A stretch of 64,000 nt of DNA from Parelaphostrongylus tenuis (lineage: Eukaryota; Nematoda; Chromadorea; Rhabditida; Metastrongylidae), in contig JAHQIW010000051.1 of NCBI GenBank assembly GCA_019055375.1, forward strand, positions 186,001 to 250,000. Reading direction: 5' to 3'. The translations under genes were made by a program, and so were the position numbers. Within the stretch, counting starts at the first letter, position 1; every line of letters starts with the position of its first letter. Positions 777 to 62,339 of this stretch are shown here, in pieces. The notes under the pieces were generated by a model. The model was not told the origin of the DNA and ran no database searches. It saw nothing but the letters and a program-made list of their open reading frames with translations.

Positions 777-815
777 TCTATAACTCCTCTTCCCTAACAT
801 TTAGAGTAACTGGTA

Positions 816-900
816 GGGCGTGTGGCACTGACACGAGCGAAATCGCCAAAACTTGCCTAGGCCACTGGCATGGCAAACTTCAAAATGGCTAAAAAGCTTA
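816..900 (+). repeat. Degenerate copy of the hammerhead-bearing repeat
   Basis: The stretch GTGGCACTGACACGAGCGA followed by CCAAAAC, GGCCAC and GGCATGGCAAACTTC matches the layout of the better copies at 39.4, 45.7 and 47.6 kb (GTGGTA-CTGATGA-stem II-GAAAC-TACCAC-tail). The catalytic CTGATGA is reduced to CTGACA and GAAA to CAAAA, so it cannot be an active ribozyme. It sits directly after the foldback element. Confidence 0.4.
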
Positions 901-13200: not shown

Positions 13201-16200
13201 AATTTTTATAGTTATGACCATGCCCTGTATCGGAAACTCATCTATGTTTCATCGGGAAAAGCACATTCTTGTGAAACTGAAACTCTTTCCAACTGTTATA
13301 TAACTTCGTTTCTTTTTTTTCACCCATGTTTTGTAGTTATTCGATAGTATGATGAATGTCTATTCTTCCACTCAGTTTGTTTTGTGAAATATAAATGAGA
13401 ATATGTAGAGTAACATAACGATCTTCATAAATAGTTCAGAATATCATCTTTTTTTGAGTATGTCTTTTATCTCGAGATTTCTGGTTTTGAGAGAAAGCAT
13501 CGCCATAGTTTTTGCTACGGATAGCTTTATCAATGTCTCTTCTGTCATATTTTACCATTTATTATTCTATATTTTATTATATTTATATATTTATATTTTG
13601 CCATTAATTCGTTGACAACGACGCTGAAATCCTGCGCGGCACGCGGCGGCTACAATGGCGACAAAATTCCCTTAAATGAAGATAAAGATAGCACATCTCA
13701 TCAGAACACTATCAAAACGCCATTGTAGCCGCCGCGTGCCGCGCAGGATTTCAGCGTCGTTGTCAACGAATTAATTTAGAGAGAACCGACTCGATCATCA
13801 CTCAACAGCGCTTTCGTAAAAGAAGAATTTGCTTCATATACATATAAAGTGCTCTGTTAAAATAATATTTCGCCGTAATTCCTATGAAGTTATAAAAAAC
13901 TTGGGACCCCTCAAATTTTGAGATATCTTAGCAGTACCATTCAGCACTCAAAATGAAAGCAATCTATCTTTAGGAATCCGTGTAAATCTGTTCACAACAC
14001 AAGACATCACGAATGCTTTCAATTTGGTACGTAAGCTTTATCTTATTTTTATCTTATCAACTCTTTTTACCTAATTTCAAAAAGGTTACTTTCGTTCTGG
14101 CGTTTCAGGATCGTCTGCAACACGTATGGGTTGACTTGACCTTGTTGGACGCAGGCGCTACTCACAATGACTTCAGTGTTGGAATGTCAGGAGCAGTTTC
14201 GAACACCAAAACCAGTGGGCCAGTTACATTTTTATATTAATCTCACTTATTCATTCAGTACATTATGCCGGAAACAAGTAGAGTGGTAAGAGACAGAACC
14301 GTGTGTCCACAAAGCGTCACTTTCAATTTAATTTATATGAAGTGCATAACCATGTTTTCATTTTCTCGTTACAGACTAGTTTGCATTCAAAGTACTATCT
14401 AATAGTGGGTCAGCGTGTCCGCACAAGAGTCATTATGGCATAAATATTGATACATAAATATAAAAACAGTCGATGAGATGGATCTATGCATAAATATTGC
14501 GTTGGCCAATTGCGATGCACGATTTTGCTTGCAGGTGCCGCAAAACGATACTAAAACTTGGGCGGTTGAACCTCTCATCAAGAATTAATTTAGTAAATTG
14601 ATGGTGACATAACAAGATTAGCAAATGTAGCAGATGTGTTTAAAAGTGGATCAACTGCAAATTTTAAGTAGTTGCAGCGGAGTCTTCATGACATGCGATT
14701 TGGATAATGCTACTCATATTAGTAGAGTATTTGATAATTGGATTCCTCAGCATGAAGAGAGATGATAGGTGAAGACGAAGATGTTAGAGTAATGTGCCTT
14801 TATTTATTTGGATAGAAAGGTGACTTATTCTCTTATTCTTTGCGAAATAGGCAGAGTTATGATGTAGATCTAGCTCACACGAGGTCAGGAGGTGTTTGAA
14901 TGCGCGATAGTGAAGTTTTTGTGAAAGTTTAGGCCATTCATATGCGATATAGATGCGATTATACGTTAGATATAAGTAAAACTTAGAAATAGGGCAATGT
15001 GAAATATTTTATCTAACCGTGTTCCAAATCTAGTGGTATGAATAGAAGCATTCATCACGTTGCGGAGAGTTCTCAGAGCAACAACTATCTAGAACTAGAT
15101 AGCATTCTCTACCAAATAGATCAAGAACATTTCATATGCTCACCTAAATTGAAACTGTGGCGTGTTCATTATAATGGAAGAATGATGTAATAAAAGCTAA
15201 AGACTGTTTTCAATGCGGAATGAAATAGAATCTGATGATCAAAGAGAATTATTTTTATTTGACCGCCTCTGGCGGTGGTATGGTGTTCTTGTATACTCAG
15301 TGATATACCCGGGCCAACCATTGACTGCTATTCGCTAACAGATAGATGCATTGCAGCGTAGAAAAAGTGGTGTCAATACGGACGTGGGTAGCGCAATGGT
15401 TCGAGCCCTCGCCCACGGATAAGGTAAAATTTGGGTTCGAGTCCCACCTGGCGCAAAAGTTTTGCATATCACTCTACACCACTGGGCCTAGACTTTATAT
15501 ATGCCTCATCAATCAATTATAGGTTAGGTGATTAAGAATAGTTTTTTTTTTGAAGAAGAATGCACAACTCGTACAATTTTGCTTTAGACGACGTCTCGCC
15601 GTATCATGCACCTTTTCCATTCCGACTACCACAAAGTCCACAGCAACGCATGATGGAAATCATAATCTCCAACTACACCTTGAATAGTGTGCTCTATCAT
15701 GCGCATAGGTTTGTCTTATGTTATTGAAGTAGATAGCTTTACAGAAACAAAACTTGTGCATCTGCAATATATTCATGCACTCATATTTCGCATATGTAAT
15801 CTTAAACACAGGGCCACACACGCATATATCTCATCCGTAAGTAGTATGCCTGACTTTTTTATGGGCCATGCATGTGCTCTGTTATGAGCACTTATTTAGT
15901 GATATGCACGGGTTTCGGTCTTGCACAATCTCGTCAATAACACAGTCCCGTTCTTCTTAGCCAATCCTCTTGGGAGTACACAACCTATTACGTAGAGAAG
16001 GCGAAGATGTACTATTTACATGTGCCATCAAGTGAAGGGAAAGTAGACAATTATTACACAAACAAATAATTTCATTCAATTAAATGATTAATTACGTTTA
16101 CTAGATCGACAATCATAATAATAAACAAAAAGATACATAAGAAAATCCTAAAATTGCCTTTTTTGGCCTCCAAACATCTAGCAAGTTGCTAGCGAAAGTT

Positions 16201-22658: not shown

Positions 22659-23110
22659 TAATTAAATATGTGCTTGACTTGTAAAAACTTTTCATCTATC
22701 TGTTTCTCAAGCTAGCCTAGTGATGTTTTACGAGGTTTTCTCAATGTTAGATGTTAGTGTGTACTTCTTATAAATATTCCGGGTACTTCTATTTGCGCAT
22801 TAATGCCTGAAAAGGCGTATTTCCTCCATTTTTGTCACTTGTGTTCAACCATATGGAGAATATTTCCATTAATGGACCGGAAAGTCATTTTCATGGTGTG
22901 TTAATGTTTTAGCGCAGTGTATTTGTACGTAAGAAGGTACAGGTTTCCTTTGTACTGTGAACGATTACATACGACACTTCGTTGGTACATAATTTATGTG
23001 CAATCTGTAATATTGTTTACCGATAAGAGAGTCTATCAGACCACCAAGACATATTTTTAACACATTCGCGACATTGCGTACTGATTTTGCTAAATAAGCT
23101 GGTGTGCAAG

Positions 23111-23407
23111 AAGAGCGCGTGTGGCGGAGTGTTAGAGGTGCTCCGCGTCGCACGTGAGGTCAATGGTTCGATCTCGCGCTCTTGGCTCACCAAGCCGTCC
23201 ATCCCTTCGGGAATAGTAAACTGGTATCAGACTCGTCTCAGAACTGTCTGAGAGGATAAGCAGCACTGACGCGGTTCAGCGGGAGACCACCGCTAGTCAT
23301 TGTAAAAGCTAGATATGCATTCAATTACCTCGAACGAAGTTAAAAATTGAAGACGAATGCATGGCGCAATCTCTCAGGGATTGATTGACGCCGAGAGCTT
23401 TATCCTC
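23111..23407 (+). mobile_element. tRNA-derived SINE, near full length
   Basis: It starts with a tRNA-like head, GAGCGCGTGTGGCGGAGTGTTAGAGGTGC (box A region), then GGTTCGATCTCGCGCTC (box B, near 23165-23180) whose end can pair with the start as an acceptor stem. The shared body follows (CACCAAGCCGTCCATCCC, GATAAGCAGCACTGAC, GGGAGACCACCGC, CCGAGAGCTTTATCC). The total is about 297 bp, like the 48.4 kb copy. Confidence 0.85.
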
Positions 23408-33401: not shown

Positions 33402-35063
33402 ATGCTCTTTACCGCTGTATTCACACTGGTAAGTCTGTGAGTCAAGCTTAGACGTTCTAAGCACTCTGAAAGAGCTGCGAATGTACAAATATCAAACAAG
33501 TGGCATAGGTGCTCGTTTACTATGGCATCGTCCAGTACTCTTGAATTCTTTGAAGCACTTCAAAGTGATTTTTCAGATCGTGCTAGGAAGATTTCATGTG
33601 AAGGCACAGATAGACGCGCAACAATTCCTTGCTTTCTCAGGGTTTAACGGAACGAAAACTTTTCTTGTGAGAATAGAATACTACAATGTTGAATCGGCAA
33701 ATTCAAATGTCACCAAACCACCCGAACCAACAACACGCGGACCTATACAATCAACAACAACAGGGCCTATCAAATCAACAACAGGAGGACCTATCCAATC
33801 AACAACAGGAGGGTCTACCAAATCAACAACAGGAAAACCTATCAAATCAACAACAGGAAAACCTATCCAATCAACAACAGAAGGGTCTACCAAATCAACA
33901 ACAGGAAAACCTATCCAACCAGGAGGAGGTACTCATTTTCATTACTTTAGGGGCACTGCTAACTACTGGATTTTTTTTGTGATTGAACTGCTCAGTGGCA
34001 GTAACCGAGCCTTTTAGATAAATGCAAACTGAACAACGGGATGAATGACGGATTGAGGGAGGTCTTTCTAAGTGACCATAATAGATTAAGGTAATGCTTT
34101 TGATGAATTCACGTTGCATTCGTAAAGATTTTTGAGGGACGACACTTTTGTTCAACGGAAAATGCATGAAAAATGGAAGACTTTTTTCAATTTTAGCAAG
34201 TTTTTTCCTCTTCTACAGATCAATGACGGCTAAAGGTTTGGCTGAAAACCCTCTCGGCACAAATCGCAAGGCACCAAAAGCGGCTCGAATGCTCAAAATG
34301 GTCAGGTGTAGTGGCCAGCCTTTTTCCAACTTTTTTTTTCGGGAACGAGAATTGCAGCTAGCATTTCTATTATCAGATTTATGACTGCAAAATCGAGGAA
34401 AGCGCTGCCAACCATGCGAAGAAATGCGTGTTCCAACACAGTTCAGGAAGTGGTAATGGTGAAAACCTCTGGGTAATGTGGCCAGCACAAAAGAATTTGA
34501 CCCAGATGGCTATATCTGTGAGTTGAGATCTTCTAATACATGTATAATAAGCGAAACCAATACAACGTTTTTTAATGATAAATCTTCAGCTCTGACACAA
34601 TGACCTTAAACGATATGTTTTTCAAGGCCAGCCAATCATGGTTTGATGAATTGAAAAAATATGGAGTTCCACCAGATAATAAACTCACAGAGGAGCTTTG
34701 GAATCGCCCAAAGATGGCAATTGGTCATTATACTGCGGTATGGGTTTTTGCTCCAGGTTCTTTTTATTGAAAAAATATCTTGCGATTTTTATGAAGATGG
34801 TGTGGGAAGGTACATACAAACTTGGCTGTGGTATTGCAACGTGCCCGGACAAGACACTTATCACCTGCCAATACTCACCCTCGTACGTTACGTGTTTTCA
34901 AAAACTATTCTGCAAAAAAAGTGTTTAAGTGAAATATTGCAGAGGTAATTGGATGGGAAACGTAATTTACACTATTGGAGAGCCTTGTAAGACTGACGAC
35001 GATTGCAAGTGCGACGGATGCAAATGTAGCCGCGACGAAGCGCTCTGCATCAAACCAAACTAG
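33402..35063 (+). CDS. CAP (ASP/SCP-TAPS) secreted protein 1 with Thr/Pro-rich repeat stalk
   Basis: Eight exons: 33402-33428, 33577-33928, 34018-34090, 34219-34300, 34377-34517, 34627-34737, 34797-34882, 34943-35063 (TAG). They join to 993 nt, 330 residues. Residues 1-20 (MLFTAVFTLIVLGRFHVKAQ) look like a signal peptide. Residues about 56-126 are eight 8-residue units such as KPIQSTTG and GPIKSTTG. The CAP domain starts near 127 and has DHNRLR, GENLW (206-210), GHYTAMVWEGT (258-268) and LITCQYSPSGNW, the standard CAP signatures. A Cys-rich tail follows (CKCDGCKC...LCIKPN). CAP proteins of parasitic nematodes are secreted and abundant at the host interface; the molecular role is not established. 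The Thr-rich stalk is likely O-glycosylated (inference). The start was chosen because all paralogues have a 9-codon first exon. Introns 5 and 6 end in AAG rather than CAG. Confidence 0.87.
33715..33925 (+). repeat. 24-bp coding repeat array (CAP gene 1 stalk)
   Basis: About eight tandem 24-bp units within exon 2, each giving an 8-residue unit xPIQSTTx, xPIKSTTx or GSTKSTTx. Several units carry Lys and only one carries Glu, so the stalk is neutral to basic, unlike the acidic array of CAP gene 2. Confidence 0.9.
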
Positions 35064-36900: not shown

Positions 36901-38272
36901 AGTATTAATATCTAAGTATTCCAGCATTACGAGTTTTGTCAACTTTTATGTCCTTATTCCATGGACAGTTGTATCATTTGTAATTTTCAACCTTGGCCAT
37001 CGTTATTGTCGTTATGTTAATGCTGGCATCACTCAGGTGAAGATTTAATTACGTAGTTTTGAGGTAGCACAGATTTGTAGCAGTTGAGAAGAGTCACGTG
37101 GTAGTCCCAGCAAAAACTCAATCAAGTCATCTTCAATTTCCTTCCATGCGGTTAGAGAATATAATTCTTTTTATTTAAACGCTTTTAGCTGTGGCATGAT
37201 GTTAAGATATACCCAGTGATGTAGAGTGATGTGCAAAACTTTCGCGTCAGACGGACTCGAACCCGCATTTCACTCTATACAGAAGCGCGTGCCTCTAAGC
37301 CGTTGCACTAGTGACGTCTATTTGGTCATCTACATTTACCCACTGGGTATACCTATAACATCATATCAGCGCTCAAAGCGGTTAATAAAAAGAATTCTAT
37401 CCAATCATCCATACCTGTCAGCGTGACTGGGTTCAATGCCGATATCAACTACCTGGGCCAAACCGCTGACGGTTGGATGGTGAAAGACTGATGCATTGTA
37501 GCCTAGAAAGAGTGGTGAGGAAGCCAAGTGTCAGTAGCGCAACCGGGTTAGAGTCCGCGCTCCTGCATTAAGTGAGGTACGGGTTTGAGTCCCAGCTGAC
37601 GCGAAAGTTTTGCTCATCACTCTACATCACTGGGTATATCTTGACATAATGCCACAGCTAAAAGCAGTTAAGTAAAGGGCATTCTATTCTCTGACCGCAT
37701 GGAAAAAAATTCAAGCTGACTTTATTGAGTTTTTGTTGGAACTGCCACGTGACTCTTATTAATTGCTACGAAGCTGTGCTACCTCAAAACTACGTGGGCA
37801 AATCTTAACTTGCGTGATGCCAGCATTACATAACGGCATTAACATTGGCCACGATAAAAGGATAAAGGATAAAGCTCTCGGCGTTGATCAATCCCTGAGG
37901 GATGCGCAATGCATTCGACTTCAATTTCTAACTTCGTTTGAGGTGATTGAATGCATATCTGGCCTTTACAATGACTCGCGGTGGCCTCCCGCTGAACCGA
38001 GTCAGTGCTGCTTATCCTCCCAGACAAGTCTGAGACCTGTCTGGTACCAATTTACCGACCCCGGAGGGATGGATGGCTTGGTGAGCCATGAGCGCGAGAT
38101 CGAACCATTGACCTCGTGTGCGACGCAGAGCACCTCTAACCACTGCGCCATATGCGCTCAACGATGGAACATTACAAATGATACAACTGCTCATGGAATG
38201 AGGAGCTTAAAGGTTGACAAAACTCGTAATGCTGGAGTACTTAGATACTTAGACACTTAGATGGTCCATTTG
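36886..38272. repeat. Long composite foldback element with head-to-head tRNA-like halves
   Basis: The left arm (about 36886-37310) and right arm (about 37500-38272) are inverted copies. Paired blocks include GTAGTTTTGAGGTAGCAC against CCTCAAAACTACGTGG, AGTCACGTGG against CCACGTGACTC, ATGCTGGCATCACTCAGG against GCGTGATGCCAGCAT, and CGAGTTTTGTCAAC against GTTGACAAAACTCG. The inner part carries two outward-facing tRNA-like segments: 37240-37315 on the minus strand (box B complement GGACTCGAACCCGCA) and 37525-37605 on the plus strand (TAGCGCAACCGGGTTAGAG; GGGTTTGAGTCCC). In the plus copy GTGTCAG and CTGACGC can pair as a 7-bp acceptor-like stem. The right arm is interrupted by the SINE at 37855-38160. 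Confidence 0.8.
37855..38160 (-). mobile_element. tRNA-derived SINE inserted in the foldback's right arm
   Basis: On the minus strand a full-length SINE: head from 38160 (GAGCGCATATGGCGCAGTGG...) with box B complement near 38090-38106, then the shared body, ending in a short GATAAAG-type tail at 37855-37872. The foldback's left arm has no SINE at the matching place, so the SINE inserted after the foldback formed. The 165-residue plus-strand frame here is a shadow of the repeats. Confidence 0.88.
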
Positions 38273-38299: not shown

Positions 38300-39430
38300 A
38301 TCACTGAACTAGAAAATAGTTTTTTCAGACTTGCTTTCGTCACTATGAGTGAACTTTTACTGTTTATTGTAACTAGAGTTTCACTTTCAACTCTAAAAGA
38401 TCAGTCTTTTTGATGCACTAAAGCGTAACATTCTTATTCTATTTTTGACACCGAAAATAGAAGAACTGAAGAAGGTAGGCTCAGATGCCTCCTTGAACGG
38501 CGTCTATGAAGCTTCAGTTATAGCGTATTTCCACATAAAAATTGTACTGGCTGTTATCATATGCTATAATTCATATTTCTCACTGGAGAACTTGATTGAG
38601 AAGACTCCACTTTTAGCAGCCACAAGGCTATCTTCCACTGGGGATGTTCTCCTCAAAGATGATGCTTGACGCTCATTCTTTCAAACGCAGGCTAGCATTC
38701 TATAGGCAGATTCTTTCGTACGACAAAGTTCAGCTACAGAATAACATATTTGAGTAGCACACTTTTTTTTCATTGTGTGTGAACAACACAGGAATGAGCT
38801 CACTCCATTCAACGGATTGTGTTAACGTCCGAGCTTCATAGAGTGTGCTATGATCAAAGCCTTAAAAGTCACATTTGAAAAAGAAGCGATACCGCTTTGT
38901 GCTGGTTCAAACAAGGTCAGTTTGTAAAAGTGTATAAGGGTTTTCGATTACGAAGGAGAATATGCGCAGCTTCAACGCCTGACCATTGTCATGCAAATTG
39001 TTTAACAAGCTTCGGCGAATACTCTTCTAACGATGGATTCCATAAATGTTTGTGAGCATCGACGTCCACAAAGACGCACCATCGCTACCTGTTGAGGTGT
39101 GCTCCCAGACCCGAGGTAAAAAATTGTTTTGGGTCGAAAAACCCTAGTAGCACTGGATATGAGCTCATCATGAATGATATATCATAGGGAAAAACAGAAA
39201 TCCTAAAAAATCAACCACTGGCTTTCAAGAATCATATATACTCCATAGTCTGAAAGTCTGTGGAAATATATTGGAGTGCCACAACGGGATTTTCGAACAT
39301 CAGTTGAATGAAAGGCAAAGTTTGTGTATGGTAAAAGCCACAAAACATTGACTGGAAAAAAGACTGCGCAACACGTGAGATTTTACCTAGTATGCGCCGA
39401 GGCATGTTCCTACTCTGTTATCATCACTGA
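38300..39430. other. No recognisable feature
   Basis: Its first 30 bases (GCGAAAGTCTTGCACATCAC...GATCACTG) resemble the outer end of the tRNA-like foldback family. The rest, including the open frame 38445-38669, has no motif or splice support. Confidence 0.4.
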
Positions 39431-39535
39431 GGGGGTGTGTGGTACTGATGAGACGAGCGAATCCGTCGAAACATACGCATACCACTAACATGCAATACCA
39501 AACCTCCAAAAAGGCATAGTAAGAAGTCTCTGGAA
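39431..39535 (+). ncRNA. Hammerhead-ribozyme-like repeat, copy A (one core deviation)
   Basis: CTGATGA at 39445-39451; stem II GACG (39452-39455) with CGTC (39464-39467), loop 8 nt; GAAA at 39468-39471; stem I GTGGTA (39439-39444) with TACCAC (39480-39485). The segment before the cleavage position reads GCA where the best copies read GTA, so the expected A-U pair next to the scissile site is lost and stem III is minimal. The downstream tail (ATGCAATACCAAACCTCC) is shared with the copies at 0.8, 45.7 and 47.6 kb. Confidence 0.6.
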
Positions 39536-40641
39536 ATATATTCCATAGTTATCGCCGTGGACATAGACGTTAAAAACACCTTGACTACTGTCTAACTATA
39601 TCAAAACTATCAGAACCGTTTGTGCAGTCTTAATTTCGGAGATCTTTCTAGTAAGGACCATCACAATAGTTTTTTAGGCAGTAAGGGTCATACAGAGCGT
39701 TATAATAGTCATGAATTCCTATCAGCTCGATGATATGATCATCACAAAGTCTTAGAAAAATTGATATTGTATTAGTGGCCGAGTAACCGACTTAGATTTT
39801 TCAATGCTCGATTACTAGGGATTTGTTCTCGAAGCTTTGAGCATCTGACTGCAATTTACAAACTACAAAAGGAGGCTGATCTTTAATGCGCTCAACATTG
39901 ATCACTCATGAAACTTCGACCATGCAGCTGTTGCAATATTATTTCAATAATTCGAAAGACTGAAGATGAATAAAGTAAACATGGTATTTTCAAACATGCG
40001 TATTGACTATGTAAACATTTATTCCAACAGATATAGTCTGAAACTCAACAACCAATAGAAAAATCCATTTGACTTTTCACAATTCGAATCATCGAGTAAA
40101 CATAGTGGATGATGAATATGGAGATGAAAGTGAATGTCGTATCTTACAGCATTGTCAGATATTTTCAAAAGATCAAAAATGTTGGATCTAGAAGACTGTG
40201 AATTTTTTCAAAAACTGATCACTTGATTCCTCTTTAGTCATTTCATTCACAATGGAAGAATTTGGTTTATATATGGTTTATCTTCCACTGCACTATCAAT
40301 AAACAAATGAACCGATTCAAGTTTTCTTTCGTGCTCTGCTACTAATAATTTCGACAAGGTGCAGTCGATATACGTAGGACAAGAAGGTTGCCACTACACA
40401 TCCAACCCTTGCCATCACTAATTGAAGATGCCTTCTTGACATTGAGATGAACGATGTAAAGACTATAAACAAAAAGCGCTAAGGATTCCTAAGTTTTGAG
40501 TTCGCATTTTTTGGGACTTCAGAAGCGTTGATTTTACCGTTTGGAAAAAATTCCACCAGTGAAGGAGACCAGAGAGTAGCATATCTAGTATCGTAGCACC
40601 GTTATATCGCGAAGGATACAACATGCTTTGAGTTGTTAGGT

Positions 40642-40695
40642 CTATGGTATACAGGCGCCTATATCGTCCTATTGGGACTCATCAGTACCACCCTA
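40642..40695 (-). ncRNA. Degenerate hammerhead in the opposite arm
   Basis: Minus strand: CTGATGA (plus 40685-40679), stem II GTCC with GGAC and loop CAATA as in the other arm, but the GAAA core reads GATA. Stem III can still form (TAG with CTG, loop GCGC) and the GTA cleavage triplet and TACC are kept. The A-to-T core change should abolish or greatly reduce cleavage. Confidence 0.55.
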
Positions 40696-40911
40696 CCTCA
40701 GTTCAGCCGATCCCTTGAGGTTAAATAATCTTCTATAAAGGAATCGAAGCCAAATATCACCCCAAGTCAGGTGATGTGCTTACCTGACATTGTGATGACC
40801 GCCAGTCGAGTACGTAGCTGTTATAAATGAATTACTGTTTTAATGTTAATACTCGGTGTCGATTCCTTTATAGAGGATTATTTAACCTCAGGGGATCGGC
40901 TGAACCGAAGA

Positions 40912-40963
40912 GGGTGATACTGATGAGTCCCAATAGGACGAAACAGACGCCTGTATACCACTC
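40912..40963 (+). ncRNA. Hammerhead ribozyme (complete core)
   Basis: Read directly: CTGATGA at 40920-40926; stem II GTCC (40927-40930) with GGAC (40936-40939), loop CAATA; GAAA at 40940-40943; stem III CAG (40944-40946) with CTG (40951-40953), loop ACGC; then T40954-A40955, predicted cleavage after A40955 (GTA triplet). Stem I is GGGTGATA (40912-40919) with TACCACTC (40956-40963), one A-C mismatch and one G-T pair. All invariant hammerhead positions are present. Its stem II and core closely resemble hammerheads known from animal retroelements and satellite repeats. Activity is inferred, not shown. Confidence 0.8.
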
Positions 40964-40984
40964 GACCTAACATCTCAAGACATG

Positions 40985-41758
40985 TATATCTTTATCAAAT
41001 TATATTATTTTGAGCGGATCAATAACAAAGCGGTCGATAGAGAAGAGTTATAACTTTATATGGATCAAACAAGGTTTCTTCTACAACTGTGTTATGTTCT
41101 TGATTCCGTAGGCCCTCAAACATCGAAAGTTTCTGGTTTATTGTTGAAAACAATTATTGGAATGTATGTACCGCGAAATCGATTGCTTTTTGTGTTATTG
41201 CAGTAGATAAAAAACGGGAGAATTTTTATGACAAGCCAATATATACACATAGAGCATATGTATAAAGAAATAGAACGCTTTTACATCTTGAAAGAATAAG
41301 ACTGTCATCATATTTCAATAATTTAATGTGGAACACTTTATCTACTTCTCCATATAGCAACACTTATGACAGTGAAACAAATAGAGGGCTAGATTTTTCG
41401 TATACTCTTCCTTCCTTCTTTTGAATTATGCTTAAAGCTGATTTTCTTCAAAGTATACAAAGTATATTCTGTTGAACGATAGAAAATGGGTTTTTTTTTT
41501 GATATACGAATGACAAAAGTTTTCATTCGGAAAATTTTTTCTGGAATGATCTGGAAAATTTTTGAACCTTTGAAAGTTTCATTTTTACGCGCAATTCAAC
41601 AACAACAGCAACATTCACTGTTCTTCAAAGTGTAGACCTTTCCTTTTTGCTTCATTTCAAATTTAAGTTTCGCTTCCATGCGTAAGCAACATCAACAACT
41701 GTAGTAATATTCTTCAACCTATAGGACACATTGTCCACGACTTTCCTTCCATCGTTAT
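40985..41758. other. No recognisable feature
   Basis: AT-rich sequence between the hammerhead inverted repeat and a mariner fragment. No gene or repeat was recognised. Confidence 0.4.
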
Positions 41759-42697: not shown

Positions 42698-44725
42698 CTA
42701 GTTCGGTTTGATGCAGAGCGCTTCGTCGAGGCTACATTTGCATCCGTCGCACTTGCAATCTTCGTCGGCTTTACACGGCTCTCCGATGGTGTAAATTATA
42801 CTTCCCATGTAGTTACCACTATATAGCTTTGTATGACCAATTTTTAGAACATAACTTGAAAAAAAGAATTATAACGTACGGAGGTGAGTATTGGCAGGTG
42901 ATAAGTGTCATGTCCGGGCACGTTGCAATGCCCACAGCCAAGTTTGTAAGTACCTTCCCACACCATCTTCATGAAAATCAATAGGTAATTTTCAGAAAAA
43001 AACACGATAGAACAATAACACATACTGCAGTATAATGACCAATCTGCATTTTTGGGCGATCCCAAAGTTCACTTGTGAGCATGTTATCTGATGGAACTCC
43101 ATATTTTTTCAATTCGTCGAACCATGAAGCACTTGCCTCGAGAAGTATACCATTAGAGATCACTGTGCCTCTTTTAGAGTTGAGAATCATCGCGAAAAAC
43201 TTATCGCAGTGAATTTGCGAATTCCAAATGGCTAAGATTTCAACTCACCGATGTAGCCATAGCAGTTAAATTTTTTTGTGCTGGCCACATTGCCCAGAGG
43301 TTTTCTCCATTGCTACCTCCTGAAGTGTGTTTAAATTCGCAATTCCTCGCATGCTCAGCGGCAGTTTTTTTCGACGTTGCAATCGTAAATCTAACAATAA
43401 AAACCGCTATTAGTGGCTTTCCCTGGGAAGAGGGTGGAAGAAGCTGAGTCCAATCCCTTACCATTTTGAGCATTCGAGCCGCTTTTGGTGCCTTGCCATT
43501 GGTCCCGAGAGGATTTTCGGCCAAACCTTTAGCCGTCAATGATCTATAGCATAAGAAAAAGGCTTGTCAAAACAGAAAACTATTTCGACTTTCTTTTTTT
43601 ATGACCTCAATCACACACGAGTTTTTTTTAGAAAAAAAACGAATGCTTATGAGATTTATCAAAGACAGCACCTGAATTTATTGTGGTCCTCCAAGAAGAT
43701 ATTCCTTAATTGGTCATTCATTCCGTTATTCAGCTGGCATTTGTCTGAATGCTCGTTTACTGTGAATGTTCAATCGACTCGCCAAAACATATTTCAATAG
43801 TTTACAATGTCTCTGTTATGATGCAAATAATTAAAACCTGCTCCTGGTTGAACTGGCTCGCTCGTTGTTGGTTGGATTGGTCCTGTTGTCGTTGACTGGA
43901 TTGGTTCTCCTGTTGTTGATTGAGGTGACCCACTTGTCGTTTGTTGGATTGGTTCGCAAGTGGCAGGTCGAAATGGTTCGCTTGTCGTTGATTGAATTGC
44001 TTCACTTGTCGTTGATTGGAATGGTTCACTTGTCGTCGATTGGAATGGTTCACCTGTCGTTGATTGCAGTGGTTCGCCTGTCGTTGGCTCTACTGGCTCA
44101 GTTGTCGTTGATTGGATTGATTCACTTGTCGTTGATTGGAATGGTTCACTTGTCGTCGATTGGAATGGTTCACCTGTCGTTGATTGCAGTGGTTCGCCTG
44201 TCGTTGGCTCTACTGGCTCAGTTGTCGTTGATTGGATTGGTTCACTTGTCGTTGATTCGAGTGGTTCACTTGTCGTCGATTGCAGTGGTTCACCTGTCGT
44301 TGATAGGAGCGGTTCTTCTGTCTCAACTGACCTGTCTGTCGTTGGCTGAAAAGGTTCGCTTGTTGTGGGCTCGACTGGTCCTTCTGAAGTTGATTGAAAT
44401 GGTGCTAATGTAGTTGGTTGATCTGGAGTAGTGTCGTTATTTGAGTTCATCCTGTAGAATTCCATTTTCAGGACGAATTTCTTTGTTAGGTTATATCCCT
44501 TGAGGACAAGAGGTTTTTCCTCATCCATTCCGGCTTTTGCATGAAATGCTCCAGATAAAAACTGAAAAATGACTTCAAAAGTTTATCGAAACGGCGGCTA
44601 TGTTGAGTAGCAAATGTGTAACCAATTTCAATTCAAATAAATGATTTACCAATATCAATTATTATTCTCGAATGTTCGAGCCGAATTGAGCAACTTACCA
44701 GTGCGAGTATAGTAGTTAATACCAT
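42698..44725 (-). CDS. CAP (ASP/SCP-TAPS) protein 2 with long acidic Thr-rich stalk; two +1 frameshifts
   Basis: Minus-strand exons matching paralogues 1 and 3: 44725-44699, 44561-43838, 43744-43672, 43543-43462, 43390-43249, 43136-43026, 42966-42880, 42818-42698. The signal peptide is MVLTTILALFLSGAFHAKA, and a second ATG 9 bases upstream (44734) is possible. Exon 2 (724 nt) encodes about 22 units such as SEPFQSTT, EPVEPTTG and EPLQSTTG. CAP signatures: DHNKFR, GENLWAMWPAQKNL, GHYTAMVWEGT and tail CKCDGCKC. Against both paralogues, exon 5 has one extra A (seven-A run, 43375-43381) and exon 7 one extra base (GTGGGCATTG against GTGGTATTG, near 42930). As written, reading fails in the CAP domain. 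Both may be assembly errors, since every splice site is kept; otherwise it is a recent pseudogene. Confidence 0.8.
43841..44413 (-). repeat. 24-bp coding repeat array with 120-bp higher-order duplication (CAP gene 2 stalk)
   Basis: Tandem 24-bp units encoding 8-residue Thr-rich units, nearly all with Glu. Within it 44041-44160 and 44161-44280 are a 120-bp tandem duplication differing at only a few positions. Part of the same unit recurs at 43990-44040. The 182-residue plus-strand frame across it is a shadow. Confidence 0.92.
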
Positions 44726-45741: not shown

Positions 45742-45855
45742 ATTAGTGAGCCGTAAAGCATGTGGTACTGATGAGGCGTGCGAAAACGCGGCAACGTTCC
45801 TGTACCACTAAGATGCCATACCGATTTTTTGAAGGTTTGAAACACTCTATCAGAG
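45742..45855 (+). ncRNA. Hammerhead-like repeat, copy B (core damaged)
   Basis: GAGCCGTAAAGCATGTGGTA leads into CTGATGA (45768-45774). Stem II is GCG (45776-45778) with CGC (45787-45789), then GCAA in place of GAAA. TACCAC (45803-45808) pairs with GTGGTA (45762-45767). The tail AGATGCCATACC...GTTTGAAACACTCTATCAG is shared with the 47.4 and 47.6 kb copies, giving a unit of about 110 bp. The C in the GAAA core should inactivate it. Confidence 0.55.
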
Positions 45856-47393: not shown

Positions 47394-47507
47394 GCGAGCC
47401 GTAAAGCATGTGGCACTGATGAGTCACTCGGAAACGTCGAAAAGTTCCTAGAGCACCGAAATGCTTTGCCAGACCTCCTAAATTGCTTAAAACATTCTGT
47501 CATTGTT
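47394..47507 (+). ncRNA. Hammerhead-like repeat, copy C (stems eroded)
   Basis: GCGAGCCGTAAAGCATGTGGCA, CTGATGA (47416-47422), GAAA (47439-47442), then a tail ATGCTTTGCCAGACCTCC...TTAAAACATTCTGTCA. Stem II (GTCA/CGTC) and stem I (GTGGCA/GAGCACC) contain mismatches. The 5' flank AGCGAGCCGTAAAGCATGTGG is nearly the same as in copy B, so the unit extends upstream of the ribozyme. Confidence 0.5.
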
Positions 47508-47620: not shown

Positions 47621-47730
47621 GGGCCGCAGGATATGTGGTACTGATGAGGCGTGCGAGAGCGTCGAACCTGCGTATACCATCGCGATGCTATGCCAGAGCC
47701 CATGAAAGTCTTAAAACATTCTATCAGACC
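47621..47730 (+). ncRNA. Hammerhead-like repeat, copy D (near complete)
   Basis: CTGATGA at 47641-47647; stem II GGCG (47648-47651) with CGTC (47660-47663); GAAC at 47664-47667 (third A replaced, or one A lost); cleavage region GTA at 47672-47674; stem I GTGGTA (47635-47640) with TACCAT (47675-47680). The tail ATGCTATGCCAGAGCC...CTTAAAACATTCTATCAG is shared. It begins only about 115 bp after the end of copy C and is in the same orientation. Confidence 0.6.
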
Positions 47731-48398: not shown

Positions 48399-48722
48399 AT
48401 CACAATAGCGAGGAGCGCATGTGGCGCAGTGGTTAGAGGTGCCCTGCGTCGCACACGTGGTCACTGGTTCGATCTCGCGCTCATGGCTCACCAAGCCATC
48501 CATCCCTCCGGGGTCGGTGAATTGGTACCAGACAGGTTTCAGACTAGTCTGGGAGGATAAGCAGCACTGACTCGGTTCAGCGGGAGGCCACCGCGAGTCA
48601 TTGTAAAGGCCAGATGTGCATTCAATCACCTCAAACGAAGTTAAAAATTGAAGTCGAATGCATGGCGCATTCTCAGGGATTGATCAACGCCGAGAGCTTT
48701 ATCATTTTTATCACAATAGCGA
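48399..48722 (+). mobile_element. Full-length tRNA-derived SINE with 13-bp target duplication
   Basis: The body runs from 48412 to 48709 and is flanked by identical 13-bp copies of ATCACAATAGCGA at 48399-48411 and 48710-48722. The head is GAGCGCATGTGGCGCAGTGG...TTAGAGGTGC (box A) with GGTTCGATCTCGCGCTC (box B); GAGCGC and GCGCTC can pair as an acceptor-like stem. The tRNA-unrelated body ends in a short T-rich tail after CCGAGAGCTTTATC. The target duplication proves retroposition and marks this as one of the younger copies. No intact tRNA cloverleaf with a normal anticodon loop was found, so it is not called a tRNA gene. Confidence 0.92.
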
Positions 48723-49114
48723 TTGAATGTCAATTATTATTTCCCAATAGTTCGTCCGCAGATTAATGAAGTCAGTGCGATAGCGACGTTCAAATACGTA
48801 GGCCACCTTCCTAATCATCTCATGTTCAAGCTGTATTCCATGCGGCAGCTCTGGTTGCTCAAACTACTCCATCATATCCTGTCTGATTTGCCATGAGAGA
48901 TAGTTAACTGCGAAAGTAGTCTTTATTCTAATGAAAGCGACCTATTTTTTTCTTCAGAGGCGGATAATTCGATTATTCGTTTGTTCTCCGATATAATCAA
49001 CTTTTTTGTTACATGTTGCCCACTTAGGGTAAGCGATCCAAATAAGTGAATAGTAATTTACTAAATTACGAAGAGGTAAAATCAAGCAGGCATAGTAGCG
49101 CAATAAAGTAGTCG

Positions 49115-49385
49115 AAATTATACCCAATGATGTTAAGTGATGTGCAAAACTTGTGTCTCAGGCGAGACGCGAACCCGCATTTCATCCTATCCGAGAGCGC
49201 GCGGTATATCGCTTGCACTACCTACACCTGTTTTGCTGCCACATTGTAGCGTAGAGAGAGCGGTGGCAAACGGGCGTCGGTTAGAGCAAGGAATAGAGCA
49301 TGCGTTCCCGGATAGGGTGAAATGTGGTTTCGAGTTCCTCCTGACGCCGACGTTTTGCACATTACTCAACATCATTGGATATATA
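49115..49385. repeat. Compact head-to-head tRNA-like foldback element
   Basis: The left end TACCCAATGATGTTAAGTGATGTGCAAAAC is complementary to the right end GTTTTGCACATTACTCAACATCATTGG. The minus-strand tRNA-like half lies at 49160-49240 (GACGCGAACCCGCATTTC) and the plus-strand half at 49275-49360 (GGTTAGAGCAAGG; GGTTTCGAGTTCC). About 270 bp in all, lacking the long outer arms of the 36.9 kb copy. Confidence 0.75.
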
Positions 49386-49425
<40 letters not shown>

Positions 49426-53045: not shown

Positions 53046-53050
53046 TAAGA

Positions 53051-53294
53051 AGGATAAAGGATAAAGCTCTCGGCGTCGATCAATCCCTGAGGGATGCGCC
53101 ATGCATTCGACTTCAATTTTTTGACTTCGTTTGAGGTGATTGAATGCATATCTGGCCTTTACAATGACTCGCGGTGGCCTCCCGCTGAACCGAGTCAGTG
53201 CTGTTTATCCTCCCAGACAAGTCTAAGACCTGCCTGGTGCCAATTTACCGACCCCGCAGGGATGGATGGCTTGGTGAGCCATGAGCGCGAGATC
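53051..53294 (-). mobile_element. tRNA-derived SINE, 5' truncated
   Basis: From GGATAAAGGATAAAGCTCTCGG to CATGAGCGCGAGATC it is nearly identical to the minus-strand copy at 37.9 kb. The sequence stops inside box B, so the tRNA-like head is missing. The frame 53094-53435 begins in it and is not a gene. Confidence 0.85.
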
Positions 53295-53815: not shown

Positions 53816-54570
53816 AGGCTAGTGCAAAAATGATGACGATTTCAGATCGTGAAATATAAAATATCATAACTAACCTTAGACACATGTTCATTAATCAAAT
53901 TAGGGACCTTTACAACCGAAACATTCCTGCCAACGAGAAATAAGCTTGCTTTCCGTGTAGTATAAAATCAGTGCCTCGGGACTCGATGAACTCTTGAGAG
54001 GCATTTTCTGCATTCTGTAGAATGTGAAGGCGTTTTTCGGGCAAAAAGTTGTCGAGATGCTTGAAGAAGTGGTAACCAGTGAGCATGAGGTCAGGCGAAT
54101 ACGCAGAATGAGGCAAAACTTTAAAATCTAATTTGTCCAACTTTTCAGGCGCTCGTTGTGCTACGTGTGGCTGCCGGCTGGCTGTAATCAAACCATCATT
54201 AAATTTGCACCAACCTTTTTCACCTTCGCACTTTGCTTCAAATGACGAACCACCTTAGCAAAGTCGACGTTCAATTTCTCTGCATCATCTTGTGTAGTCT
54301 TAAGAGAATCAACTTCGGTGAATGCTTTTAATTTGGACATTGTCAAATTCCCTTGGAGGGCACTACATTCCCAATCTATAAGGCTCTCGGCTCCTTTACA
54401 AAACTTTTTGAACCACCGCTGCACTGTACGTTCCTTAGCAGTTCCTGGACGGAATGCATTGTTGATGTAGCCAGTAGTTTCCTCTGCTTAAGACCCATAT
54501 TGAACTTCCTATTGAACGGACCGAAATGGTCAGCTTTTGCAACAACGTAATTTCTTCCCATAGTCTAGAA
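53816..54570 (-). mobile_element. mariner element, internally deleted
   Basis: Minus-strand N-terminal part (54424-54190): QRWFKKFCKGAESLIDWE and LKAFTEVDSLKTTQDDAEKL then VRHLKQSAKVKKVG, the mariner helix-turn-helix region. It then jumps to the C-terminal part (54175-53915): PHVAQRAPEKLDKLDFKVLP, HSAYSPDLMLTGYHFFKHL. The central catalytic segment with the first aspartate is missing. At 53816 the sequence TTAGGCTAGTGCAAAAATGATGACG resembles a mariner terminal repeat (TTAGGTTGGTGCAAAAGTAAT type, as in the irritans group). The other terminal repeat was not found. It cannot code for an active transposase. Confidence 0.78.
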
Positions 54571-55559: not shown

Positions 55560-56050
55560 ATGTTTAGAGCCTTCTTCGAAACTAATACGTCAGTGGCTTT
55601 CGTACGTTTCGGCGGTGTCGTCCACCTTATCAGGGCCACACGCTACATACTCAACCCTACTTTATAGCAGGAATGGGAAGACGTGTTTTTGGTGAGTGTA
55701 CGTGATTGTGGTTGTCACCATTTTTTGAAGAGATGAGATGGGCGTACGACCGAAACGTACGTAACCTACTGACTTATGAACTTCGAAAAGGCTTCAAACA
55801 TTGTCACAAACTATATTGATTGCTGATAGAGAGGTTCAAAAATAGTCCACTGGAAGGTCGTCTACATTCACTATAACACGTAATTCATCTACTGAAAAAA
55901 CTGATGTTAACCATGATTACGTGCTATCACCAAAACGCTTCCCATTCCTGCTATGAAGTTAGGGTTTGAGGGAGGAGGAGTGGGGTAGTTGTGATGAAGT
56001 GGGTGACACGGCCGTGACGTACGTAAGCACCTGACGTATCAACCTCGAAA
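55560..56050. repeat. Foldback cluster carrying three Penelope-type hammerhead-like motifs
   Basis: The left arm (about 55560-55720) and right arm (about 55900-56050) are inverted: CTCAACCCTACTTTATAGCAGG and AATGGGAAGACGTGTTTTTGG against CCAAAACGCTTCCCATTCCTGC and TAGGGTTTGAG. Each arm ends in a motif ACCGCCGAAACGTACG or GGCCGTGACGTACG followed by a CTGACGTAT...TTCGAA...GCTT tail. A third copy, in the plus orientation, lies between them (55735-55800). Confidence 0.65.
55594..55640 (-). ncRNA. Minimal hammerhead-like motif, Penelope type
   Basis: Minus strand: CTGATAA (plus 55633-55627; the consensus is CTGANGA, so one core change), stem II GGTGG with CCGCC and loop ACGACA, GAAA (plus 55610-55607), then CGTA with a one-pair stem III and a GTA cleavage triplet. 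GTGGC and GCCAC can form stem I. The very short stem III is typical of hammerheads described in Penelope-like elements. Confidence 0.45.
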
Positions 56051-60699: not shown

Positions 60700-62066
60700 T
60701 TGCTAGGACACATTCCAGCCCATCTGACGAACACTCAGATGTTCCTGGATCGTCTACTTAACGCGAACCCGAACAGCGCGTACGTAATGGAGTCATTCGA
60801 CGTCACTGCTCTATACACCAACGTATCGAATGACTCCGCATTACAAGCCACACATGAGCTTCTGATACAACACCAGGGAGCTGTAAACATGTATGGCTTG
60901 TCGATTGAGCAGTTCATGGTCCTGTTAAAAGAGTGCCTGAACTGCTCAATCTTCAGATGGTCCGCGAAGAATTTCGCACAAATCAGAGGGCTGGCAATGG
61001 GGCAGCGACTGGCGCCTAGCCTAGCGATTGCCTTTATGTCGAAAGTGGAAGCACCAGTGATGGATCTCCGGCCATTACTCTACTGTAGGCATATAGATGA
61101 CTGTTTGGTTATCTGCTCTACTCAAGAAGAGCTAAATAATTGCTTTAGATTGTTGAATGAACAGTCAGAGTATATAAAGTTTACCCGTGAGATACCAAAA
61201 GATCATTGGCTTCCTTTCTTGAACGTGCAAATAAGCTTAAGCGAGAGCGGCTACATCACAAAGTGGTACCGGAAGCCAAGTAGTAAAAATATCCTGGTTC
61301 ACTATCTCTCTTCTCATCCCTCACATACGAAAAAGGCGCTAGTAAAGAACATGTTTCGAACAGCAGCCAGCGTATGTACTGGGGAGGAGCAGAGAGAAGA
61401 ATCCGTGAAATTGGCTCGGGAAATAGCCACTTCTAATGGATATGAATTTGTAGCCCCTCGGCTTAGGTTTAGAGGAAATAGTGCGCCTCCGAACGAAAAC
61501 TCGAATGAAAGGAAAATCCCGTTCGTACTCCTGTTCTTTTCAAATGAGATTAGTACAGCTATAAAACGCTGTTTGAAAAGAGCGGGTTTAGAGCAATCTG
61601 TGTCCATTATTGAAATACCACCGAATACTCTAAAACGCCAACTAGTTCGCAACCGCTTATACGACCGTCTCTGTTTAATGAAAGACTGTAGAAATATGTC
61701 CTAACGGCAGAGACGGTGATTGCACGAGCGTAGGTACAGTCTACCAAATCTCTTGCAAAGCGTGTAGCGATAAATGTATTGGCGAAAACAGGTAGGCCGC
61801 TCTATGCCCGCATAGAAGAACACTTAGCTGATAAGCGTCTTAAAAGACGGAACACCCCGCTAGGGACGCATAGAGAACAGAAACACGACGGAGCTGATTT
61901 TGAGATTGAAGTCACCATCCTTGCGCAGGAACAAAAAACATCAGCGCGAAAACTTCTTGAAGCACTTTGGATTAATACCACCAATCCAACTATGAACCGC
62001 AGGGAGGAATGCCTTGTTATCACACGTGATTTTAGTCAATATGTAAGACTGTTATTTGATAGGTAA
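60700..62066 (+). mobile_element. Penelope-like element: reverse transcriptase + GIY-YIG endonuclease
   Basis: The frame 60700-61704 (334 residues) contains RT motif A ESFDVTALYTNVS, motif B RGLAMGQRLAPSLAIAFM, motif C YCRHIDDCLVI (HIDD in place of the usual YIDD) and the Penelope-typical LPFLNVQI...WYRKPSSKN and HPSHTKKALVKNM. After the stop, 61704-61790 in another frame reads GTVYQISCKACSDKCIGE. The frame 61779-62066 continues GRPLYARIEEHLADK...LEALWI, giving a GIY-YIG endonuclease with a small frameshift inside it. Single-ORF RT-GIY-YIG elements are Penelope-like retroelements. Here the 5' part of the RT (before motif A) is short and the two frames are separated, so it is probably inactive but recent. 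A related fragment lies at 24.0 kb. Confidence 0.9.
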
Positions 62067-62262
62067 GGTGCATTACGAGCCTATGTGATCTCTTTGCGGT
62101 TGTCTCCACTTGAATCATTCAGTGGAACACATATAAAAAGCGGTGAGTATGTTGAGAGTTGATTTTGTGCTTGATGCGATTGAAATCTAGGTGTGGTGAT
62201 TTTTTCTAAAAGAGTATTGGAGGTGTTTGGCTTATTGGATTGCGGACAATTTGACCTTTCCA

Positions 62263-62298
62263 GGCTCTGAAGAAGGCGAACTGCCGAAACGTCAGCTG
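62263..62298 (+). ncRNA. Minimal hammerhead motif at the Penelope-like element's 3' end
   Basis: CTGAAGA at 62267-62273 fits CTGANGA. Stem II is GGC (62275-62277) with GCC (62283-62285), loop GAACT, plus one extra A (62274). GAAA is at 62286-62289, then CGTC with a one-pair stem III and the canonical GTC cleavage triplet (62291-62293). GGCT (62263-62266) pairs with AGCT (62294-62297) as stem I. Penelope-like elements are known to carry such minimal hammerheads in their terminal regions. Stems are very short, so activity would probably need a dimer (inference). Confidence 0.6.
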
Positions 62299-62339
62299 TG
62301 AATAAATTTTATTGTAACACCTCGTGTTTTGCTTAAAGA

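Follow-up and report, generated by a model that had tools for sequence, protein, structure and literature searches.

Mirror-image inserts of a hammerhead retrozyme family in Parelaphostrongylus tenuis and their probable insertion by Penelope-like machinery

A repeat within a 64,000-nucleotide stretch of Parelaphostrongylus tenuis DNA (the window, part of a 481.5-Mb assembly) carries an apparent hammerhead ribozyme, here called 'a', which raises the question of whether the motif is genuine and by what route such a repeat was inserted. The core elements listed by the original prediction (CTGATGA, stem II, GAAA, stem III and the GTA triplet) were each recovered where it had placed them (Table 1), and its stem I with one mismatch was confirmed, 7 of 8 positions pairing, with an A.C mismatch at the third pair and one G-U. 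The motif has the CUGANGA...GAAA core, NUH triplet, three stems and open stem I of type I hammerheads. A strict descriptor (CTGATGA, 4-bp stem II, GAAA, 3-bp stem III and UH triplet, with at most one mismatch among eight stem I pairs) matched the window only at 'a' and gave 0 matches in 150 dinucleotide shuffles, in agreement with the expectation that such a combination would rarely arise by chance; a looser descriptor gave 1 match in 150 shuffles. The 24-nt core with up to three mismatches occurred at 2 sites in the window, with 0 expected (100 shuffles).

The covariance model gave a different answer. The original prediction had named a sub-threshold score as grounds for rejection, and the Rfam family Hammerhead_1 (RF00163) scored 'a' at 24.4 bits against a gathering score of 34 (E 0.16 with 4,227 families on 64 kb; E 0.001 on a 411-nt stretch), in a cmscan alignment that takes a cut register other than GTA. 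We uphold 'a' despite this score because the genome-wide family and the compensatory changes described below outweigh it. Judged on its sequence, 'a' is a real type I hammerhead motif and not a chance match.

Table 1. Coordinates of the retrozyme insert, hammerhead motifs and Penelope-like features in the window
Feature	Position	Strand	Remarks
Whole element, old head-to-head retrozyme insert	about 40612..41045	.	arms joined 5'-to-5' at centre
Left arm	40612..40834	-	outer 3' end in zone A, ~monomer 36-37, by eye
Right arm	40850..41045	+	outer 3' end at monomer position 89 (zone B)
Type I hammerhead 'b', left arm	40642..40694	-	core broken, GATA for GAAA
Type I hammerhead 'a'	40912..40963	+	intact core; stem I with one A.C mismatch
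'a' CTGATGA	40920-40926	+	
'a' stem II GTCC/GGAC	40927-40939	+	loop CAATA
'a' GAAA	40940-40943	+	
'a' stem III CAG/CTG	40944-40953	+	loop ACGC
'a' GTA triplet	40953-40955	+	
'a' predicted cut	between 40955 and 40956	+	
Hammerhead 'c', second family	39431..39500	+	C for U16.1
Decayed hammerhead 'e'	45754..45823	+	GCAA, broken stem II pair, G at cut
Decayed hammerhead 'f'	47402..47471	+	225 nt upstream of 'd', same strand
Decayed hammerhead 'd'	47627..47695	+	one A of GAAA missing
Decayed hammerhead, one arm of another inverted pair	55580..55647	-	E 5.6e-7
Weak partner of the 55580 hammerhead	55981-56041	+	E 0.082
Decayed hammerhead	814..880	+	E 1.1e-6
Penelope-like reverse transcriptase ORF, candidate relative of mobilising machinery	60700..61704	+	
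Minimal Penelope-type hammerhead, no stem III	62267..62293	+	complete core; downstream of RT ORF

The element around 'a' is a palindrome. Positions 40621-40985 match their own reverse complement at 77% identity, and the two arms match the 281-nt family monomer of locus L010 at 80% and 82% identity. Hammerheads 'a' and 'b' both read outward from the insert centre, one per strand; the core of 'b' lies at 40685, and its Rfam score was 16.7 bits, again below the 34-bit gathering score. The right end of the insert was set by the monomer match and the left end by eye on a lenient alignment, which crosses zone A (defined below) into likely flank; the strict BLAST piece of the left arm covers 40637-40834 and stops at monomer position 13. 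No target-site duplication survives at the window insert, the best candidate by eye being GTTATA, and a 6-bp TTATAT duplication was dropped once the monomer alignment had shifted the right end. The best reading of this sequence is a decayed fossil copy of an animal (non-LTR) retrozyme.

Other interpretations of the element were set aside. A Pol III B-box near the insert centre (GGTGTCGATTCC, GGCTTCGATTCC) was seen by eye only and judged to be at chance level. A viroid-like rod with ribozymes of both polarities facing each other was dropped, since any head-to-head insert yields facing ribozymes of both polarities. A frame at the core beginning MSPNRTKQ was considered as the start of a Penelope-like element (PLE) protein, and the motif was absent from the 120 PLE proteins listed. 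The 47-aa frame at the hammerhead core gave no protein homologue, and a 22-nt pattern had 0 matches in collections of viral contigs and genome contigs.

Folding of the whole-element RNA predicts a hairpin of -227.4 kcal/mol versus -165.4 for the best fold that keeps the ribozyme, which is thus ∼62 kcal/mol less stable, whereas in a transcript of the right half alone the ribozyme fold is predicted to cost only ∼2 kcal/mol. According to this model, 'a' is masked by the other arm in a whole-element transcript. The suggestion that this copy is the best candidate for an active ribozyme in the window consequently stands only in part: 'a' is the best-preserved classical copy there, hammerheads 'b' to 'f' all carrying lesions, but the other arm masks it, better family copies exist elsewhere, and the Penelope-type hammerhead of the window has a complete core as well. 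Given the age of the copy, its mismatch and its masking partner arm, self-cleavage by 'a' itself appears doubtful.

A search of the assembly with the core pattern CTGATGAGTCC-N5-GGACGAAA returned 928 and 1,009 exact matches (1,937 in all) against 0 for the reversed-pattern control, which bears out that the type I hammerhead is genuine and belongs to a repeat. We sampled 66 loci (L009-L074), i.e. all non-window clusters among the first 100 of the 1,937 places listed; each has at least one intact core, so that short or ribozyme-less inserts are under-counted. Together with the window, these loci define a ∼281-nt retrozyme-like monomer that is often tandem, with copies spaced 280-286 nt apart in the first 20 sampled loci and up to four units per arm. 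The monomer has a GC content of 44.5%, and its longest stop-to-stop stretch, taken on the circular unit, is 96 aa. A type I hammerhead in tandem units of 150-450 bp, GC below 50% and duplications longer than 4 bp, which are among the features by which retrozymes are recognised, are all present. The largest array fetched (L009; G000:C149:42000-47500) holds 4 + 4 intact-core units and lies in an AAT microsatellite.

The 67 loci (66 plus the window) comprised 43 '-+', 1 '--+', 13 '-', 10 '+' and 0 '+-' arrangements, so that family copies point away from the insert centre: arms run outward in 44 loci, inward in none, and a single arm is present in 23. One insert, L020/L021 (G000:C179), is mirrored near both ends of its contig, representing either a large palindromic contig or an assembly artefact; L021 was counted in the orientation classes, the unfiltered end counts, the tally of flanking repeats of at least 10 nt and the 70-arm and 40-pair statistics, and left out of the tallies of flanking repeats of at least 9 nt, of arm lengths and distances and of stem pairs. 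The window was left out of the duplication-defined-end and arm-length/distance tallies. More than one monomer was present in 35 of 108 arms (maximum 1,242 nt), for which the template was therefore not a cut linear monomer, but circular or multimeric. The median distance was 0.010 from one arm of a locus to the other, 0.005 inside a single arm and 0.069 across loci. An origin of both arms from the same RNA is not claimed, since the sister arm was nearest for just 25 of 48 copies.

The ends of the inserts were measured along the L010 unit, with position 0 as the first base 3' of the ribozyme cut. Outer 3' ends fell for 66 of 70 arms (at least 90% identity) into two zones that were drawn after seeing the data, zone A at 24-58 and zone B at 76-97 from the cut, and the inner 5' ends of the same arms were uniform (KS p 0.59). 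Exact flanking direct repeats of at least 9 nt were found at 37 of 65 loci, 26 of them being 12-14 nt long, and repeats of at least 10 nt flanked 30 of 67 loci versus 0.5% of 600 mismatched flank pairs. The duplications measure 9-16 nt, plus 21 nt in one microsatellite locus; those of L009, L020 and L074 lie in simple repeats. Because the duplications bracket the entire mirror-image insert, each insert represents one event. When ends were defined by duplications, all 64 lay in A (35) or B (29), and 26 of the 27 head-to-head inserts with duplications, which span 147-2,406 bp, had one A and one B end (p 4e-7), with 12 A-left/B-right, 14 B-left/A-right and 1 A/A. Without the duplication filter, the head-to-head loci gave 37 opposite and 3 A/A among 40 classifiable, with 4 unclassified. 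Judged on alignment for the right arm (B, 89) and by eye for the left (A), the window insert fits this pattern.

The circular unit is predicted to fold into neighbouring hairpins at 6-65 and 73-123, whose apical loops (25-49 and 85-113) contain, by hand count, 33 of the 35 ends in zone A and 25 of the 29 in zone B. The fold reached -84.6 compared with -65.9 +/- 5.1 for shuffles, and a ribozyme-competent circle is predicted to cost 3 kcal/mol.

Upkeep of the ribozyme was assessed across family copies. In 35 copies outside the selection, 7 of 420 cells in the 12 core columns departed from the majority, against 116 of 1,827 in the upstream columns (Fisher p 4e-5), a comparison that is biased since loci were chosen for one intact core and copies are non-independent; maintenance of the catalytic core is thus suggestive only. 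Among 117 hammerheads with up to four core mismatches, all six inner stem I pairs were formed in 89, a tally that favours pairing as the 3' strand was taken as the best-pairing of seven offsets. Stem I pair 3 occurred as CG (96) or GC (5), and stem III as TAGGCGCCTA (69) or CAGGCGCCTG (4), both compensatory, along with uncompensated stem III forms (CAGACGCCTATA, 2). By eye, the inner helix of stem I has 6 bp and is separated from an outer helix by a bulge of 3-4 nt in the 3' strand. The family stem III is self-reverse-complementary, like hammerheads proposed to act as dimers in the accessible part of PMC3088659.

A wider scan of the window found related motifs at 39445, 45768, 47416 and 47641. 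Hammerhead 'c' belongs to a second family whose pattern has 11 genome matches; it is flanked by 19-nt direct repeats (39254-39272 and 39524-39542, 18/19 identical) 270 nt apart, which could be either a target-site duplication around an insert of ∼251 bp or part of a tandem unit. Hammerhead 'f' keeps its core letters and has lost three core-adjacent stem I pairs and two stem II pairs; perfect matches between the flanks of 'd' and 'f' were discarded as overlaps of the same DNA. A covariance model trained only on 'c', 'd', 'e' and 'f' recovered both palindrome arms (E 0.0012 and 0.0071), plus the hammerheads at 55580(-) and 814(+). When eight window copies were aligned, in an alignment that was fitted to the structure, standard pairs filled 84.7% of pair cells versus 76.3% on shuffling (0 of 500), and the covariation score was 0.301 versus 0.179 (1 of 500 shuffles as high), every slid control being lower; both sides changed in 6 of 16 pairs, a figure that 52 of 500 shuffles equalled or exceeded, and 39 of 500 showed at least as many pair types. 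On 'c' to 'f' alone, covariation did not reach significance, with 272 of 500 shuffles scoring at least as high.

The window contains further repeats. Long palindromes lie at 155-775, 11009-11740, 13603-13775 and 49103-49398, the last of which looks tRNA-like, with a B-box-like sequence by eye, and in which ARAGORN finds no tRNA; it may be a mirror-image SINE formed in the same way as the retrozyme inserts. A ∼245-300 bp repeat is present in five copies (7935-8180, 23110-23406, 37858-38160, 48410-48709 and 53049-53294) that are 86-96% identical pairwise, i.e. a young repeat family. Minisatellites of 24-nt units occur in open frames at 43851-44322 and 33728-33915, the ORF at 43797-44528(-) having a likeness to Cornifin repeats just under the Pfam cut-off, and a helix-turn-helix fragment of a Mos1-type transposase at 54191-54487 falls slightly below it.

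Also in the window is a PLE (60700-62330) with a reverse transcriptase (RT) ORF and a minimal hammerhead. The best relatives of its RT are in strongylid nematodes, Angiostrongylus first, with Haemonchus and Ancylostoma too, to which a LINE endonuclease ORF in the window likewise points. The Penelope-type hammerhead pattern had 2,465 exact matches in the genome (control 0), and close opposite-strand pairs among the first 100 of the 2,465 places listed run '-' then '+'. Eight PLE loci were fetched, five of which (L075-L079) were picked for the closest hammerhead pairs among the matches listed. Duplications in these five measure 9, 15, 12, 12 and 12 nt. Downstream of the ribozyme cut, every insert ends at 60-79 nt on one side and at 113-121 nt on the other. 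In L080 the ends are at 57 and 133, the second lying 12 nt past the five-pair range; L081, with an 11-nt duplication containing one mismatch, agrees only by eye, and L082 does not form a pair. In published PLE biochemistry, two adjacent internal RT starts form a 'tail' signature that is called unique to PLEs, and both strands are extended (PMC11167929); rotifer PLEs are described, in the accessible part of PMC3846280, with inverted head-to-head terminal units and an optional 31-bp tail on one of them. PLEs have also been proposed as the mobilisers of retrozymes on the grounds of co-occurrence, shared type I hammerheads and tandem layout (PMC7229834).

Based on the family, the orientation rule, the zones, the A/B pairing, the duplications and a handful of PLE inserts, we propose, with a probability of roughly 0.8, that Penelope machinery copies circles or multimers of retrozyme RNA into cDNA, starting at both ends of a DNA break. 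A non-coding RNA of ∼281-nt units would be cut by its type I hammerhead, and the units circularised or left multimeric. The PLE protein would cut both target strands, and the resulting DNA ends would yield duplications of mostly 12-14 nt. Reverse transcription would begin internally, at the loops of a neighbouring pair of hairpins that lie immediately 3' of the ribozyme cut, one DNA end priming at site A and the opposite end at site B. The two cDNAs would extend toward the 5' side, sometimes for more than one round of the unit, stop at scattered points and then be joined, leaving a mirror-image insert with its 3' ends outward. PLE-type two-ended priming on circular or multimeric ribozyme RNA is the most likely origin of the window insert. 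Several observations sit less easily with the proposal: 23 of 67 loci have a single arm only, a few head-to-head loci are A/A when the duplication filter is lifted, the window insert retains no target duplication, and of the three further PLE loci one fits by script, a second only by eye, and the third does not form a pair. The tail length and strand behaviour published for PLEs, given below, also differ.

A narrower version, to which we give slightly less than even odds, holds that a single RNA circle made by the hammerhead is held by a PLE protein dimer, each subunit opening one hairpin loop and priming one target end, so that full insertion would be obligatorily asymmetric and mirror-image. 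If true, this would make the retrozyme a minimal RNA parasite of the PLE machinery and the PLE 'tail' a footprint of the subunits' division of labour.

Four other explanations were weighed against Penelope-type insertion of circles or multimers. The template could be a linear multimeric transcript of genomic tandem arrays, with the hammerhead incidental or used for trimming only; such arrays occur, and arms across the cut site require just an uncut junction. We nonetheless regard this as unlikely, since multimers of this kind would be cleaved by a ribozyme that stays active, circles are known from published animal retrozymes (PMC7229834), and the core changes less than the upstream region (7/420 vs 116/1,827, biased by the intact-core selection). 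Insertion by a LINE enzyme through frequent twin or dual priming, as for human L1, would draw on LINE endonuclease and RT fragments that are present in the window, and L1 twin priming shares the geometry of two inverted cDNA fragments within one target duplication, as far as the accessible part of PMC2837659 describes it. There, however, it is a variant tied to poly(A), one cDNA starting in the poly(A) tail, whereas head-to-head retrozyme inserts make up most of the sample and are linked to two internal loops, both cDNAs starting in fixed internal zones. This, together with a two-site signature that is called PLE-unique (PMC11167929) and is present in PLE inserts of the same genome, makes a LINE origin improbable.

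That the inserts are inverted repeats, in a window with other palindromic repeats, might suggest a fold-back (MITE-like) DNA transposon that happens to bear a hammerhead in both arms. A terminal-inverted-repeat element would have two identical fixed ends, but within an insert the two arms are unequal in length and have different outer ends (A versus B in 26/27), inner breakpoints are scattered and duplications range over 9-16 nt (21 once), so that this explanation is highly improbable. Just as hard to credit is a chance or dead motif without a ribozyme history: the sub-gathering Rfam score speaks for it, and the 0/150 shuffles, the 1,937 genome matches and the compensatory changes speak against it.

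For the integration of animal retrozymes, the dozens of copies sampled here appear to record a mechanism in which both ends of the DNA are primed, copying starts in two zones inside the RNA, and the template can run across the cut site. The retrozyme pattern agrees with PLE inserts of the same genome and with published PLE biochemistry. Head-to-head insertion would also explain palindromic repeats that are easily mistaken for fold-back transposons. We found no description of a head-to-head architecture for a retrozyme in the open-licence literature, covered mostly as titles and abstracts.

Several known systems resemble the family. The metazoan non-LTR retrozymes, tandem copies for which a LINE or PLE was suggested as mobiliser (Cervera and de la Peña 2020, PMC7229834, a paper in which the word nematode is absent), share with it the type I hammerhead, small tandem repeats, GC below 50%, the lack of a long coding region and target duplications longer than 4 bp; they are described as tandem, whereas here the head-to-head form predominates and the outer ends fall into two zones. 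In Schistosoma, a parasitic worm of a different phylum, short repeats known as SMalpha SINE-like elements (Ferbeyre 1998, via PMC8490949) likewise contain a type I hammerhead, and the accessible part of PMC8490949 mentions no head-to-head architecture. With the PAc and Adineta Penelope elements, as described in PMC11167929 and the accessible part of PMC3846280, the retrozyme inserts share two adjacent internal RT starts, head-to-head units, both-strand priming and short duplications. The PLE tail is 30-40 bp long (PMC11167929) versus an A-B distance of ∼50 nt in the retrozyme, and the in vitro work found no start-site difference between strands, whereas nearly all head-to-head retrozyme inserts use one A and one B. 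Unlike PLEs, which are recognised by an RT and a GIY-YIG endonuclease, the 281-nt unit encodes no protein (no open stretch exceeds 96 aa) and has a hammerhead with stem III. By analogy, the best reading is a retrozyme that works like a PLE but is not one.
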